From IMG/VR virus record IMGVR_UViG_3300021956_000094, positions 1 through 20,778 of that record: 20,778 nucleotides of DNA; one strand, 5' to 3'. Source of the stretch: a virus. Shown piece after piece: positions 3,585 through 18,484 of this stretch (positions are counted from its first letter, which is position 1; the number at the start of each line of letters is the position of its first letter). The notes below the pieces were generated by a model, which searched no databases, was not told the DNA's origin, and worked only from the letters and a program-made list of their open reading frames with translations. A program made the translations under genes and the position numbers.

Positions 3585-3938
3585 ATGAAAGCTTTACAAA
3601 TCAACGCAGAAGTATTAACAACAACAGGATTAAATATCCCTGCAGGTGCAGTAGTTGTAATCAATGAGTTCTTAACTCAATCATTCCAAGAAAAAAAAGG
3701 TAGCATTCCTGTTCAAATAGGTATTTCTACATTTGTTAACAAAGAAGCATATGAGTCAGGAAAATCAGAAGTAGCAACTGTATCTTCTTACAATCAATTA
3801 ATTACTTGTGATATTACTCCAGATGAGTATTCAACTATCCCTTGTGAAACATTGTCTATTATGGAAGTTCAAGATGTTTTAGAATTTTTATATCCAGGTA
3901 ATGTAGTAGTTATTGATGTAGTTAAACCAACTGTATAA
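3585..3938 (+). CDS. Unknown small protein downstream of fibre genes
   Basis: A 117-aa protein with mixed alpha/beta character, starting MKALQINAEVLTTTGLNIP. It has a valine-rich strand (AGAVVVINEFL) and a hydrophobic C-terminal segment (LEFLYPGNVVVIDVV) that looks like a buried beta strand rather than a membrane helix. No catalytic motif is visible. It overlaps the next gene by one base (TAATG), which links it to the membrane-protein cluster that follows. I do not recognise the family. Its position suggests a minor structural or fibre-assembly role. Confidence 0.45.
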   Translation: MKALQINAEVLTTTGLNIPAGAVVVINEFLTQSFQEKKGSIPVQIGISTFVNKEAYESGKSEVATVSSYNQLITCDITPDEYSTIPCETLSIMEVQDVLEFLYPGNVVVIDVVKPTV

Positions 3939-4219
3939 TGAAGAAATTAATAAACTTTATAGCAGGTTTCTTTTTAGATAAACCTGATGCTCCTTCAATG
4001 AAGCGTTTGATTGCTTTATTCTTAGGTATTCTATTGGGTGTAACCCTATACCATAATAGCTTTAGCGAGCAACATGTAGCTCCATCTGAGGCTTTAGTAT
4101 ATTCAGTAACTTTATTGATTGCTGCTCTATTAGGGTTGAAAGTAGTTGAAAAAGCTATTGATGGATATTTTGGAAAGAAAAACAAAACTGATGACTCAAG
4201 CGAAGAAACCAGCAACTAA
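3938..4219 (+). CDS. Two-pass membrane protein, holin-like
   Basis: A 93-aa protein. It has an amphipathic N-terminus (MKKLINFIAGFFLDKP) and two predicted membrane helices at about residues 22-38 (KRLIALFLGILLGVTLY) and 53-69 (LVYSVTLLIAALLGLKV). The charged hydrophilic C-terminus is rich in K, D, S and E. This size and topology fit class II phage holins, which form inner-membrane holes that release or activate endolysin. However, an endolysin and another holin-like gene lie 13 kb away at 17169-17944, so this protein may be an alternative holin, an antiholin or an unrelated membrane protein. It overlaps the next gene by 29 nt. Topology is well supported; function is inferred. Confidence 0.45.
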   Translation: MKKLINFIAGFFLDKPDAPSMKRLIALFLGILLGVTLYHNSFSEQHVAPSEALVYSVTLLIAALLGLKVVEKAIDGYFGKKNKTDDSSEETSN

Positions 4220-4493
4220 AAAAACAGCGACTAAAAAGGTAGTAGACACAGCATCAGGTGCTGTTAAACTACCTGTTAGTTTTAATCAATTTAGAAAGTA
4301 CCCAATAGCAGCGGTAGCTTTCCTTTGTGTATTTGGTATTATCTATGTATACAAAGATATGAAGGCTGGTTCAAGCAAAGGTATTGATAACTGCATTGAA
4401 GACAATCGTAATCTTCAAAAGACAGTAGATAAGAAAGACTCAATTATTTATAACATCATAGCACAACAAGCAATTATCAATGCAACCAAATAA
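4191..4493 (+). CDS. Single-pass membrane protein with basic Lys/Ala/Thr N-terminus
   Basis: A 100-aa protein from ATG 4191. The frame opens upstream with a TTG at 4146, but ATG 4191 gives the short-overlap arrangement seen across this cluster. Residues 1-17 are strongly basic with KKPATK and KKTATKK repeats. One membrane helix lies at about 38-54 (PIAAVAFLCVFGIIYVY), and an external segment at 66-98 could form a short coiled coil (NRNLQKTVDKKDSII). By the positive-inside rule the basic tail would be cytoplasmic and the coil periplasmic, a topology shared with inner-membrane spanins. Overlaps with both neighbours (29 and 14 nt) suggest coupled translation. Function is not established. Confidence 0.45.
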   Translation: MTQAKKPATKKTATKKVVDTASGAVKLPVSFNQFRKYPIAAVAFLCVFGIIYVYKDMKAGSSKGIDNCIEDNRNLQKTVDKKDSIIYNIIAQQAIINATK

Positions 4494-4836
4494 AGCAGCA
4501 GCAATAATTACACTTGTTATACTTGGGTTAATATTAATAATGTTGACCTCTATAACAGCACAGAAAGCAATCCGATCTCACGAAGTTAAAGGATGGCATT
4601 CTATAAATATTGACTCTATGGTTACCGTAACCGTAAAAAAAAATAGTCAGTTTATAGAAAAACGTGTTGGTGAGCTAAAGCACGCAGAGAAAGCTTGCGA
4701 TAGTTTTAAAATTGTAGTAACTGAATTAAAACAAGAAAATATAAAACTCAATGAAAAGATTAATGGTGATGACGATGATGTTGCTGGTAAGCCATTTGAG
4801 CTTAAGCCAATCGTATCCGAAAACAAAAATAATTAA
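4480..4836 (+). CDS. N-terminal membrane anchor with periplasmic coiled coil, i-spanin-like
   Basis: A 118-aa protein. A membrane helix at about residues 7-27 (AAIITLVILGLILIMLTSI) is followed by a mainly charged, helical region (VGELKHAEKACDSFKIVV, then ELKQENIKLNEKI) that looks like a coiled coil. It ends with an acidic patch (DDDD). Inner-membrane anchor plus periplasmic coil is the layout of Rz-type i-spanins. The final 86 nt overlap the next gene in another frame, as Rz and Rz1 often do. The overlapping partner has a signal peptide but no lipobox cysteine, so a classical Rz/Rz1 pair is not proven. The Lys-Asn-rich C-terminal tail has no known role. Confidence 0.45.
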   Translation: MQPNKAAAIITLVILGLILIMLTSITAQKAIRSHEVKGWHSINIDSMVTVTVKKNSQFIEKRVGELKHAEKACDSFKIVVTELKQENIKLNEKINGDDDDVAGKPFELKPIVSENKNN

Positions 4837-5149
4837 TGGAGATACGGTCGTATTATTATTGAAGTCACAAGCGGAAGATATTAACACTAAATTCTATAAC
4901 TACAATGAAAAAATTAATACTCAAAAAAATCAAATTGATAGTCTATTCTTACTTAGCAAAGTTGGGAATAAAGCTATAATTGATAGTTTGAAAGAAAGAT
5001 TGGATATTGCTATTATGGCTAATAACCAATTGTTTGGATATAATGAAGGCTTGAGAAAAGCATTTGAAGATATAAGTAGTTCTTTAGATAGTGCATTAAT
5101 GAGAAGGGCAAGGTATATTAAAAGAAAATATGTATTAGATAAATATTAA
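4751..5149 (+). CDS. Secreted coiled-coil protein overlapping the upstream gene
   Basis: A 132-aa protein. Residues 1-19 form a signal peptide (MKRLMVMTMMLLVSHLSLS), probably cut before Gln20 by signal peptidase I; no cysteine follows, so it is not a lipoprotein. The mature part starts with IINGDTVVLLLKSQ, a pattern I associate with secreted phage and prophage proteins of Bacteroidota. It continues as a mostly helical, heptad-like region with QKNQIDSLFLL and IDSLKERLDIAI, then a basic end (RRARYIKRKY). Its first 86 nt lie within the upstream gene in another frame, so the signal peptide is dual-coded. It probably acts in the periplasm with the preceding membrane proteins. Confidence 0.5.
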   Translation: MKRLMVMTMMLLVSHLSLSQSYPKTKIINGDTVVLLLKSQAEDINTKFYNYNEKINTQKNQIDSLFLLSKVGNKAIIDSLKERLDIAIMANNQLFGYNEGLRKAFEDISSSLDSALMRRARYIKRKYVLDKY

Positions 5150-5917: not shown

Positions 5918-6123
5918 TGACAACTATCCACGAGTTTCAATCTACTATATGGGTTGATACTCCCCACGGAGAAGGCATCGCAATATTAATGATAGATTAT
6001 GGAATACATCAAAATACAATATGGGTGGTGGCAAATAAGGACGATGGAAGAGTTCGTCATTATGATTCAAATGATATTAAATACAGTACAAACCATACAT
6101 TAAAAATTAACAATGGCAAATAA
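5917..6123 (+). CDS. Small conserved phage protein (HGEGIAxxxIDYG type)
   Basis: A 68-aa protein with TPHGEGIAILMIDYGIHQN, TIWVVA and RHYDSNDIK, a compact beta-rich pattern. Similar small proteins occur in many Bacteroidota phages and prophages, without an assigned function. It overlaps the upstream gene by one base and the next by 11 nt. It is much less lysine-rich than its neighbours, so it is likely a distinct functional unit rather than another basic packaging factor. Confidence 0.5.
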   Translation: MTTIHEFQSTIWVDTPHGEGIAILMIDYGIHQNTIWVVANKDDGRVRHYDSNDIKYSTNHTLKINNGK

Positions 6124-7348
6124 ATTATCTAAAAAACAAATTGAAACATTATTGGCTAATATGCCTAAGCCTAAGCAGGCTGCTAATGCTGTAGATAATA
6201 CAAGTAAAGCAAAACCAAGACCTGAAGAAAACCCAGCGTCTAAAGAAGCATATAAGATGTTTCTTGGTCAATTGCAAAGAAAACAAGAAAGCCAAAAAAA
6301 ATTTATTAATGATGCAGGTCCTGCACCTGTTTATAAAAATGTAGGTGAAAAAGTTAGAGCAGATTTAGAAAAAGAATCAAGACAAAGAGATTTGGCAGCA
6401 TCTATTCCAAACGAAAAATTAAATGCTTGGGCAGAAAATGTTGGTATCCCTGTAGCTGATATAGCTGCTGTATTAGAAGCTCCTGGAGCTGGTAAAGCAT
6501 TATTAAGATTATTTGAAGAAAAAGGTGCACCTGAAGCTTTAAAAAACATTATTAAAAGCAATGTTGAAAATGAAGTAAAAGATGAATTAGTTCAAAAAGA
6601 TTTATTTGGCAATAAAGTATATGTGCCTAATAATTTACCAGAAGATGTAAGAGCATTAGCAGATGCAAATAGAGACGCATTGACATTTTCTAAATCTCCA
6701 TATAATAAAGCTAAAATGCAGCAATTTAGACCTGGACAAACATTTGATATAACTAATACAGAAGCAATGTTTCCAGACAATCCTAAAGCTAAACAACTAT
6801 ATGAATTAATACAAAAAGATGATAAAAGTTTAAAAGGTAAAACTCTTGAGTCTTTAGTTCCTAAAAATGGAGCAGAAGGAAGATATCTTGCAGAAGATAT
6901 TGGAGATTTAAATGATTTAGCAATAGTTAGAAAAGGTCAAGATTATAAAAAAACATATGATGCTGCAATTCATGAATTAGGTCATAGTAGAAGCATTAGA
7001 AACCCGTCTACACCTGAAGAAAGAAAAATATTAAAGGATGCTTGGTCAGGATTAGATACAGACCAAGAGTTAGAACAAGAAGCTGTTCAACATGAACTTA
7101 GAATGAAACTTGGAGATAAACTTGGCAATAGAGTATATACAGAGAAAGATATACCTGAAATAAAAAGCATTATGACTAATTTTGCTAAAGAAAATCACCC
7201 ATATATTACAGATGCAAATAAATTTGATTATAGTAAAATTGTGAATTCTTTAAATAAAATAGGTGCAGCTGCTGTTACAGGTGCAACAACTAAAAAATTA
7301 CTTTCAGATAAAACAGTTCAAACATTAAAGAAAAAAGCTAATGGCTAA
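6113..7348 (+). CDS. Putative zinc metallopeptidase (HELGH), virion-associated candidate
   Basis: A 411-aa protein. Residues 287-291 read HELGH within YDAAIHELGHSRS, a zincin HExxH motif. About 28-36 residues later the segment ELEQEAVQHELRMKLG (319-334) supplies glutamates suited as the third zinc ligand, much as in ImmA/IrrE-like and related zincins. The first 200 residues are charged and helical, with a Pro/Lys-rich start and an Ala-rich helix (ADIAAVLEAPGAGKALLRLF). The C-terminus has a weakly hydrophobic GAAAVTGATTK stretch, too short for a confident membrane helix. No signal peptide is seen. It lies among small basic genes upstream of the terminase, so it could be an ejected virion enzyme, a maturation protease or an anti-host factor. 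The catalytic motif is visible; its role is inferred. Confidence 0.5.
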   Translation: MANKLSKKQIETLLANMPKPKQAANAVDNTSKAKPRPEENPASKEAYKMFLGQLQRKQESQKKFINDAGPAPVYKNVGEKVRADLEKESRQRDLAASIPNEKLNAWAENVGIPVADIAAVLEAPGAGKALLRLFEEKGAPEALKNIIKSNVENEVKDELVQKDLFGNKVYVPNNLPEDVRALADANRDALTFSKSPYNKAKMQQFRPGQTFDITNTEAMFPDNPKAKQLYELIQKDDKSLKGKTLESLVPKNGAEGRYLAEDIGDLNDLAIVRKGQDYKKTYDAAIHELGHSRSIRNPSTPEERKILKDAWSGLDTDQELEQEAVQHELRMKLGDKLGNRVYTEKDIPEIKSIMTNFAKENHPYITDANKFDYSKIVNSLNKIGAAAVTGATTKKLLSDKTVQTLKKKANG

Positions 7349-17150: not shown

Positions 17151-17152
17151 AT

Positions 17153-17164
17153 GAGCGTATTATA
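17153..17164 (+). promoter_or_regulatory. GAGCGTATTATA element, copy 3 (before lysis cassette)
   Basis: The exact 12-mer lies directly after the terminator poly-T. The ATG at 17151 overlaps it (only A and T lie before it), so that ATG is unlikely to be the true start. The likely endolysin ATG at 17169 begins 4 bases after the element, which would make the mRNA leader extremely short if the element is a promoter. Confidence 0.65.
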
Positions 17165-17168
17165 CTAT

Positions 17169-17762
17169 ATGTTTGAAAAATTAAAAGGCATTGTTCCTCA
17201 GCCACTTTTAGACCAAATGCCAGCTAATGGCATTGACACGCCACTTAGAGCAGCTCACTTTTTAGCACAAGTTGCTCACGAATCAGGTACATTTAAATTC
17301 AAATCAGAAAACTTAAACTATAGTAAAGAATCTTTAGTTAAGGTTTTTCCTAAATATTTTACAGCTGCATCAGCAGAAGCTTACCATAGACAACCAGAAA
17401 AAATAGCTAATAGGGTTTATGCAAACCGTATGGGCAATGGTGATGAAAAAAGTGGTGACGGTTGGAAGTTTAAAGGCCGTGGTTATATTCAATTAACAGG
17501 CAAAGACAATTACAAACAATTTTCTCAAGACATAAAAGATAACAAAGTGTACGACAACCCAGATATAGTTGCCGATGATGAATATGCAGGACTAAGTGCT
17601 ATATGGTTCTGGAATAAAAATGGCCTAAATAAAATAGCAGATACAGACAATTTAAGAGACGATAAAACATTAATCAAGATTACATCAAGGGTTAATGGTG
17701 GAACTCACGGACTTGCTGATAGATTAGAAAGATTTAATAACTACAAAAAGATTTTATTATAA
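17169..17762 (+). CDS. Endolysin, glycoside hydrolase family 19 (chitinase-like)
   Basis: A 197-aa protein from ATG 17169; an in-frame ATG at 17151 would add six residues encoded by the putative promoter element. Key motifs, numbered from 17169, are AAHFLAQVAHESG at 28-40, with Glu38 the likely general acid, SENLNYS at 46-52, FKGRGYIQLTGKDNY at 101-115 and SRVNGGTHGLADR at 173-185. This pattern is the GH19 fold of many phage endolysins that cleave peptidoglycan glycan strands. There is no signal peptide, so release needs a holin. It heads the lysis cassette and overlaps the holin-like gene by one base (TAATG). Identification as GH19 is firm; peptidoglycan as substrate is inferred from phage context. 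Confidence 0.88.
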   Translation: MFEKLKGIVPQPLLDQMPANGIDTPLRAAHFLAQVAHESGTFKFKSENLNYSKESLVKVFPKYFTAASAEAYHRQPEKIANRVYANRMGNGDEKSGDGWKFKGRGYIQLTGKDNYKQFSQDIKDNKVYDNPDIVADDEYAGLSAIWFWNKNGLNKIADTDNLRDDKTLIKITSRVNGGTHGLADRLERFNNYKKILL

Positions 17763-17944
17763 TGGATGTAACTACTTCTCATTCTTCAGCAAACCATTAT
17801 TGGTTGTTAGCAAGTTTATTTTTAAATATAGTTGCTAATTTAGACAAAACAAATATTACCTTTGTATTAGGTGTTATTGTTTCAATACTTGCGATAATTA
17901 ACTATGTTATTCAAATCAAAAAGAATCTTAAACGTAAAAAATAA
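17762..17944 (+). CDS. Small holin-like membrane protein
   Basis: A 60-aa protein with hydrophobic segments at about residues 13-27 (YWLLASLFLNIVANL) and 32-52 (ITFVLGVIVSILAIINYVIQI), then a strongly basic tail (KKNLKRKK). Short length, one or two membrane helices, a positive C-terminus and overlap with the endolysin gene all fit a phage holin, which would permeabilise the inner membrane at a set time. Holins lack conserved sequence, so the call depends on context. The next gene starts 3 nt downstream. Confidence 0.6.
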   Translation: MDVTTSHSSANHYWLLASLFLNIVANLDKTNITFVLGVIVSILAIINYVIQIKKNLKRKK

Positions 17945-17947
17945 ATT

Positions 17948-18484
17948 ATGGGTACGAAAGCTATTGGTATATTCTTATTGGGCGTTATTATTAGCGTGCT
18001 TTATTCCTGTAGCCCTGTTAAGAGAGTGCTTAGCAATCCCAAATATTATGCCCAAGTTAAGAGGCAAGTTATCCTTAATGGAGAATGCGTTAATGATACA
18101 ATTACGGAAGAAATACTTAAAGATACAATAATCTATAAAGATACAGTTATCCACGATAGCTTTAAGGTCAATATGCCTATGGAGTGTCATTTAGATACCA
18201 TAGTAAATGATTTTAGCGTGTATTTAGAGAATGGCAATCTTTGGGTTAAATGGTTAGGTAAAATGCCTACAAGGACCATTAATAAACAAACAACCCACGT
18301 TGTGGTTGATAAGGCTAAAGAAGCTATATTGTTAGATTCTTGTGCAAATCAAGCAAGAAAGATATATGAGCTTGATAATCAAATAAGTAGAAAAAATTCT
18401 ATTATATCAAAATTATTTATTGGGTTAGCAGTAATATTACTTATTATGTTAAGAAAACCCATAATGAAACTCACTTCTTTTTAA
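17948..18484 (+). CDS. Putative unimolecular spanin (lipoprotein with C-terminal membrane helix)
   Basis: A 178-aa protein. Residues 1-20 are a signal peptide ending in the lipobox LYSC, so Cys21 should be lipidated. The ectodomain is charged, with several Cys and repeated DT-rich beta-like strands (IYKDTVIHDSFK). A hydrophobic segment at about 156-168 (LFIGLAVILLIML), flanked by Lys155 and Arg169-Lys170, should anchor the C-terminus in the inner membrane. An outer-membrane lipid at one end and an inner-membrane helix at the other is the u-spanin layout known from phage T1 gp11, which disrupts the outer membrane after endolysin action. Its position directly after endolysin and holin supports this. 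The membrane helix is short (13-19 residues). Confidence 0.6.
   Translation: MGTKAIGIFLLGVIISVLYSCSPVKRVLSNPKYYAQVKRQVILNGECVNDTITEEILKDTIIYKDTVIHDSFKVNMPMECHLDTIVNDFSVYLENGNLWVKWLGKMPTRTINKQTTHVVVDKAKEAILLDSCANQARKIYELDNQISRKNSIISKLFIGLAVILLIMLRKPIMKLTSF

Follow-up and report, generated by a model that had tools for sequence, protein, structure and literature searches.

A putative unimolecular spanin in a late lysis cassette

We propose that the 178-residue lipoprotein encoded at 17948–18484 is a putative unimolecular spanin (u-spanin), and that the cassette which it closes comprises the late lysis genes of a podovirus-like phage of Bacteroidota; we put the probability of this explanation as a whole at about 0.85. 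The strongest argument for a part in lysis comes from related loci, in which the predicted adjoining enzyme is exchanged (GH19, GH24, M15_3, M15_4) beside a constant lipoprotein.

The stretch of DNA under analysis (referred to hereafter as the window) is a complete IMG/VR virus record of 20,778 bases, and is probably a piece of a larger phage genome. Its packaging and head genes match the PHROG terminase, portal, and major head protein families, and tblastn matches to the terminase and portal among named isolates fall only in Flavobacterium, Cellulophaga, Tenacibaculum, and Maribacter phages (~22–30% identity), which makes a member of the Bacteroidota the most likely host. Scans of genome contigs returned no relatives of the lipoprotein family, and hence no direct link to a host. 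Elsewhere in the window, a 411-residue protein (6113–7348) carries a HExxH metalloprotease-like motif (AIHELGHS) and has no significant PHROG match.

The three lysis ORFs, all on the plus strand, sit between a gene without known function and a virion structural gene. The leading ORF (17151–17762) encodes an endolysin of 203 residues from position 17151, or of 197 residues from position 17169, the latter start being common to relatives that do not have the six-codon extension (L004, L005, and L006). An earlier note on this DNA had read the gene as a GH19 endolysin, and the Pfam GH19 profile agrees (PF00182, E = 6.4e-8, 33.1 bits against a curated cut-off of 25.5), as does the endolysin family PHROG_181 (E = 6.5e-73). 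The close packing that it reported, with overlaps or gaps of at most 3 nt, can be read directly from the ORFs: the endolysin stop codon (17760–17762) shares 1 nt with the ATG (17762) of a 60-residue ORF (17762–17944), which ends 3 nt before the lipoprotein begins at 17948. Twenty close relatives from IMG/VR keep this order to the extent that their contigs cover it. At one locus (L021, 7561–8117), a stretch across the holin/lipoprotein junction is missing, so that the first part of the holin-like gene runs straight into the central part of the lipoprotein gene region; this is either a true deletion or an assembly error.

The 60-residue protein has one clear transmembrane (TM) segment by hydropathy (32–50), a possible weaker one at approximately 13–26, and a very basic C-terminus. 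It is conserved in all intact relatives and has a weak match to the holin family PHROG_4237 (E = 0.08); position and shape are what mark it as holin-like.

The lipoprotein opens with a hydrophobic signal and a lipobox-like motif, LYSC, that places the predicted lipidation site at Cys21 (codon 18008–18010), followed by SPVKR. At its far end lies a C-terminal TM segment (approximately residues 150–171, 18395–18460), which is also helical in low-confidence AF2 models; the best 19-residue hydropathy window is 150–168 (KD 2.25), basic residues flank the segment on both sides, and RKPIMK follows it in a K/R-rich tail. In a six-frame scan, this is the only ORF of the window to combine a lipobox with a C-terminal TM segment. 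A slightly stricter version of the same scan across 130 loci (1.36 Mb, overlapping) recovered 111 family copies and eight other matches, the latter reducing to five distinct sequences of 71–85 residues, four of which lie on the minus strand of their locus; since nearly everything recovered is a family copy, the layout is not a product of chance. Together with conservation across the family, these features bear out, at the level of sequence, the earlier reading of a Cys21 lipid plus C-terminal helix as the u-spanin layout.

No significant PHROGs or Pfam assignment was obtained for the window lipoprotein, and tblastn against 50,697 phage records gave no match. Two AF2 models were poor (mean pLDDT 62.6 and 65.3, pTM 0.24 and 0.29); in both, a helix follows the lipid Cys (~23–43), some strands occupy the central part, and the TM segment lies within a long C-terminal helix, but the β-containing ectodomain so modeled is not reliable. 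Foldseek comparison of a low-confidence model with BFVD returned a single weak match (E = 4e-4, TM 0.37), a protein from an uncultured member of the Caudovirales, which we do not count as evidence.

In the scheme that we favor, the holin-like protein would permeabilize the inner membrane, allowing the GH19 endolysin to escape and cut peptidoglycan. The 178-residue protein, with its Cys21 lipid in the outer membrane and its C-terminal helix in the inner membrane, would then span the freed periplasm and, presumably through fusion of the two membranes, destroy the outer one. What we infer here is the lipidation of this protein, its sorting to the outer membrane and its topology, membrane fusion, the role of the holin, and a disulfide-linked dimer through Cys47 (discussed below).

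A widespread lipoprotein family beside exchangeable endolysins

A first search for relatives of the lipoprotein yielded the 20 close ones, and stepwise profile searches then widened the set. The resulting family comprises 61 distinct sequences in three groups, reaching down to ~21–30% identity, and profile–profile comparison (hhalign) joins the groups with probabilities of 99.7% and 98.7%. Every one of the 61 carries a lipobox-like Cys followed by x-PVK, and the C-terminal TM segment is clear in 59, the exceptions being L126, where the contig end cuts the gene, and L132, which scores 1.24; the C-terminal tail is net basic or neutral. Acidic residues after the lipid Cys serve, as a rule, as a surface-export signal for lipoproteins. 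In this family, the residue between the lipid Cys and PVK is Ser, Asn, or Asp and no acidic export signal is seen, a pattern compatible with a lipoprotein that faces the periplasm.

The three groups differ in what adjoins the lipoprotein. In the window group, the neighbor is the GH19 enzyme. In a second group (L041, L083, L084, and L088; ~21–34% identical to the window protein), no endolysin was recognized beside the lipoprotein, which in L041, L083, and L084 holds an equivalent place near a structural gene. The third and large group (L097–L134; 24–31% identical) mostly has an endolysin directly downstream, or in a few cases (L097, L098) no more than ~0.7 kb further on, its type varying between M15_3 peptidase, M15_4/VanY peptidase, and GH24 phage lysozyme (Pfam, PHROGs, and motif tally); in several of these loci, a gene for a two-TM protein also immediately precedes the lipoprotein. 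It is this swapping of unrelated endolysin types while the lipoprotein stays that argues for a lysis role of the latter and, with the lysis neighbors in the window, supports the earlier description of a lysis cassette. The distant members gave only weak PHROGs or Pfam matches, to families without known function, and we found no isolate record with a member of the family.

Comparison of the window gene with that of L010 shows 37 synonymous against four amino-acid-changing codons across codons 45–131, with the signal peptide and TM segment varying more than the ectodomain; this points to strong purifying selection on the ectodomain. Two further members, L078 (4308–4844) and L008 (905–1441), have a common C-terminal anchor and differing ectodomain alleles, a pattern of mosaic exchange in which ectodomains and anchors recombine, as read from the alignments. 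Synonymous change is low in codons 22–44 of the lipoprotein gene; an overlapping gene or RNA element was considered as the cause and set aside, given the disappearance of the effect in L015 and the mosaic nature of the gene.

A near-invariant periplasmic cysteine

The window protein has three periplasmic cysteines, Cys47, Cys80, and Cys132. Cys47 (codon 18086–18088) lies exactly 26 residues past the lipidated Cys, and Cys80 (codon 18185–18187) is kept in the two nearer groups by alignment. Across the family, the first periplasmic Cys falls at +26 from the lipid Cys in 60 of the 61 members, a count to be read with the knowledge that this Cys formed no part of the search patterns, although confirmation by similarity favors sequences that retain it; the remaining member (L135) has no periplasmic Cys. 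In 32/61 members the +26 Cys is the sole periplasmic Cys, and a single conserved cysteine of this kind suggests an intermolecular disulfide, such that Cys47 might link a homodimer.

The +26 Cys sets the family apart from the u-spanins catalogued so far, none of which (0/58) has a periplasmic Cys, this being an observed regularity and not part of the definition (Kongari 2018; PMC6139136). There is little mechanistic data on u-spanins, and the absence of periplasmic Cys has been read as meaning that they have no need of covalent dimerization; a large family with a near-invariant Cys at fixed spacing offers a direct test of that idea. We would also suggest, tentatively and at somewhat less than even odds, the wider picture of a u-spanin family, widespread among uncultivated phages of Bacteroidota, whose members work as disulfide homodimers via the +26 Cys, with some relatives adding a two-component spanin-like pair within the cassette that holds the u-spanin.

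A second block of membrane genes and possible dual spanins

The window has a further block of membrane genes at 3938–5149, retained in most of the close relatives tested. Its 93-residue leading protein (3938–4219, plus strand) has two TM segments, is found at 92–99% identity in close relatives, and is a second holin candidate. In the distant locus L120, the gene that immediately precedes the u-spanin encodes a protein 50% identical to it, a homology which raises the possibility that the lysis genes of the window phage may be split between two places. The next gene (4146–4493, plus strand) encodes a TM-plus-coil protein that has a homologue in L120, an i-spanin-like gene (31% identity over 54 residues, E = 5e-9), and the block also holds two further secreted or membrane proteins. 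At its end (4751–5149) is a 132-residue protein whose signal peptide, once cleaved (LSLS/QSYP), would expose an N-terminal Gln, in keeping with the Q rule of Bacteroidetes. The L007 record (91,067 bases) has two blocks of the 3938–5149 type on opposite strands (25543, plus; 85984, minus), and is perhaps a chimeric contig or derived from two related phages.

In L120 itself (4183–4808), the i-spanin-like TM-coil gene overlaps one for an o-spanin-like lipoprotein without a TM segment, in the same cassette as the u-spanin. This pair lies upstream of the u-spanin in 15 distant contigs (L120, L102, L103, L104, L106, L111, L113, L114, L116, L124, L126, L127, L128, L130, and L133), making phages with both spanin types possible. 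If true, this would contradict a statement of the 2025 ISME survey, according to which Bacteroidetes phages rely on u-spanins and on no other spanin type (PMC12596118).

Alternative explanations

Phages are known to make lipoproteins that act in exclusion, and the window protein could be a lipoprotein with another role of this kind (superinfection exclusion, for example) that has come to lie in the late lysis region by chance; the group in which no adjoining endolysin was recognized would sit well with this. A spanin nonetheless better accounts for the C-terminal anchor in the inner membrane and for the recurring association with exchangeable endolysins, and we regard the alternative as improbable. 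A still smaller probability attaches to a true spanin located elsewhere, as a two-component system in or near 4146–5149, to which the 178-residue protein would be accessory. The homology of the 4146–4493 product to the i-spanin-like partner seen in the 15 distant contigs speaks for such a system; against it, the two genes that follow 4146–4493 have no lipobox and no match to the o-spanin-like protein, and the 178-residue ORF is the sole lipoprotein candidate of spanin layout within what is an incomplete 20.8-kb contig.

The least probable of the alternatives, for which we see scarcely any room, is an embedded two-component spanin, in which a 75-residue ORF in the +1 frame (17904–18131, plus strand) would be the o-spanin and the 178-residue protein the i-spanin. 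Most close relatives keep this frame open, its LLLAC includes a lipobox-like LLAC, and the low synonymous change in codons 22–44 is what an overlapping gene might leave. That signature fits mosaic exchange, however, given its loss in L015; the Cys of the +1 ORF is missing in L015 to L019, L061, and L079; L069 has no +1 ORF of at least 40 residues; and the surrounding frame already encodes a lipoprotein that has a conserved Cys of its own. The embedded o-spanin was rejected on the grounds that neither Cys nor ORF is conserved across relatives, and 17904–18131 is probably a by-product.

Comparison with known spanins

The earlier note held that descriptions of u-spanins in phages of Bacteroidota are rare, a view contradicted by three publications (PMC6139136, PMC8776804, and PMC12596118). 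Kongari 2018 (PMC6139136) lists in Table 5 u-spanins from Cellulophaga, Flavobacterium, and Riemerella phages, its families and members including phi13:2, phi12:1, phi10:1, RAP44, 11b, and FCL-2; the records give Bacteroidota hosts for phi13:2, phi12:1, 11b, FCL-2, and RAP44. Bartlau 2021 (PMC8776804) annotates u-spanins in two Cellulophaga phages, Ingeline and Nekkels, and in Nekkels a GH19 enzyme lies beside it; these belong to other phage groups, and the likeness to the window is one of annotation. The u-spanin of Cellulophaga phage phi13:2 was not found in the genome stretch examined.

As judged by the searches made here, the predicted lipoprotein family is a so far undescribed and widespread one, new in that it has no sequence match to the u-spanins searched and in that it conserves the +26 Cys. 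A profile of the family would also permit annotation of lysis cassettes for which present libraries give no assignment.

The closest parallels in arrangement come from Flavobacterium phage 11b, where a GH19 endolysin is followed 1 nt on by the lipoprotein-TM gene PHG11b_49, and from Riemerella phage RAP44 (gp03). Both proteins, which we identified with entries of the catalogue from their layout and position, have a lipobox (FSC), a C-terminal TM segment, and an adjoining endolysin, as does the window cassette, whereas no homology between them and the family profile could be detected, and neither has a periplasmic Cys (sequences checked).

By definition, u-spanins combine a lipobox with a C-terminal TM segment, and the T1 protein gp11 complements Rz/Rz1 (PMC6139136); a location together with holin and endolysin genes is customary for them but not required. 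The window protein resembles the gp11 type in its N-terminal lipobox, C-terminal TM segment, and holin/endolysin cassette, while differing in its three periplasmic cysteines; the periplasmic domain of the T1 family is reported to be mainly β (a property that is not definitional), and the low-confidence AF2 models have some strands in their central part. With lambda Rz/Rz1, the window protein would have in common the proposed end effect and the presence of periplasmic Cys for covalent dimers, the difference being that the task falls to two proteins in lambda and would here fall to one.
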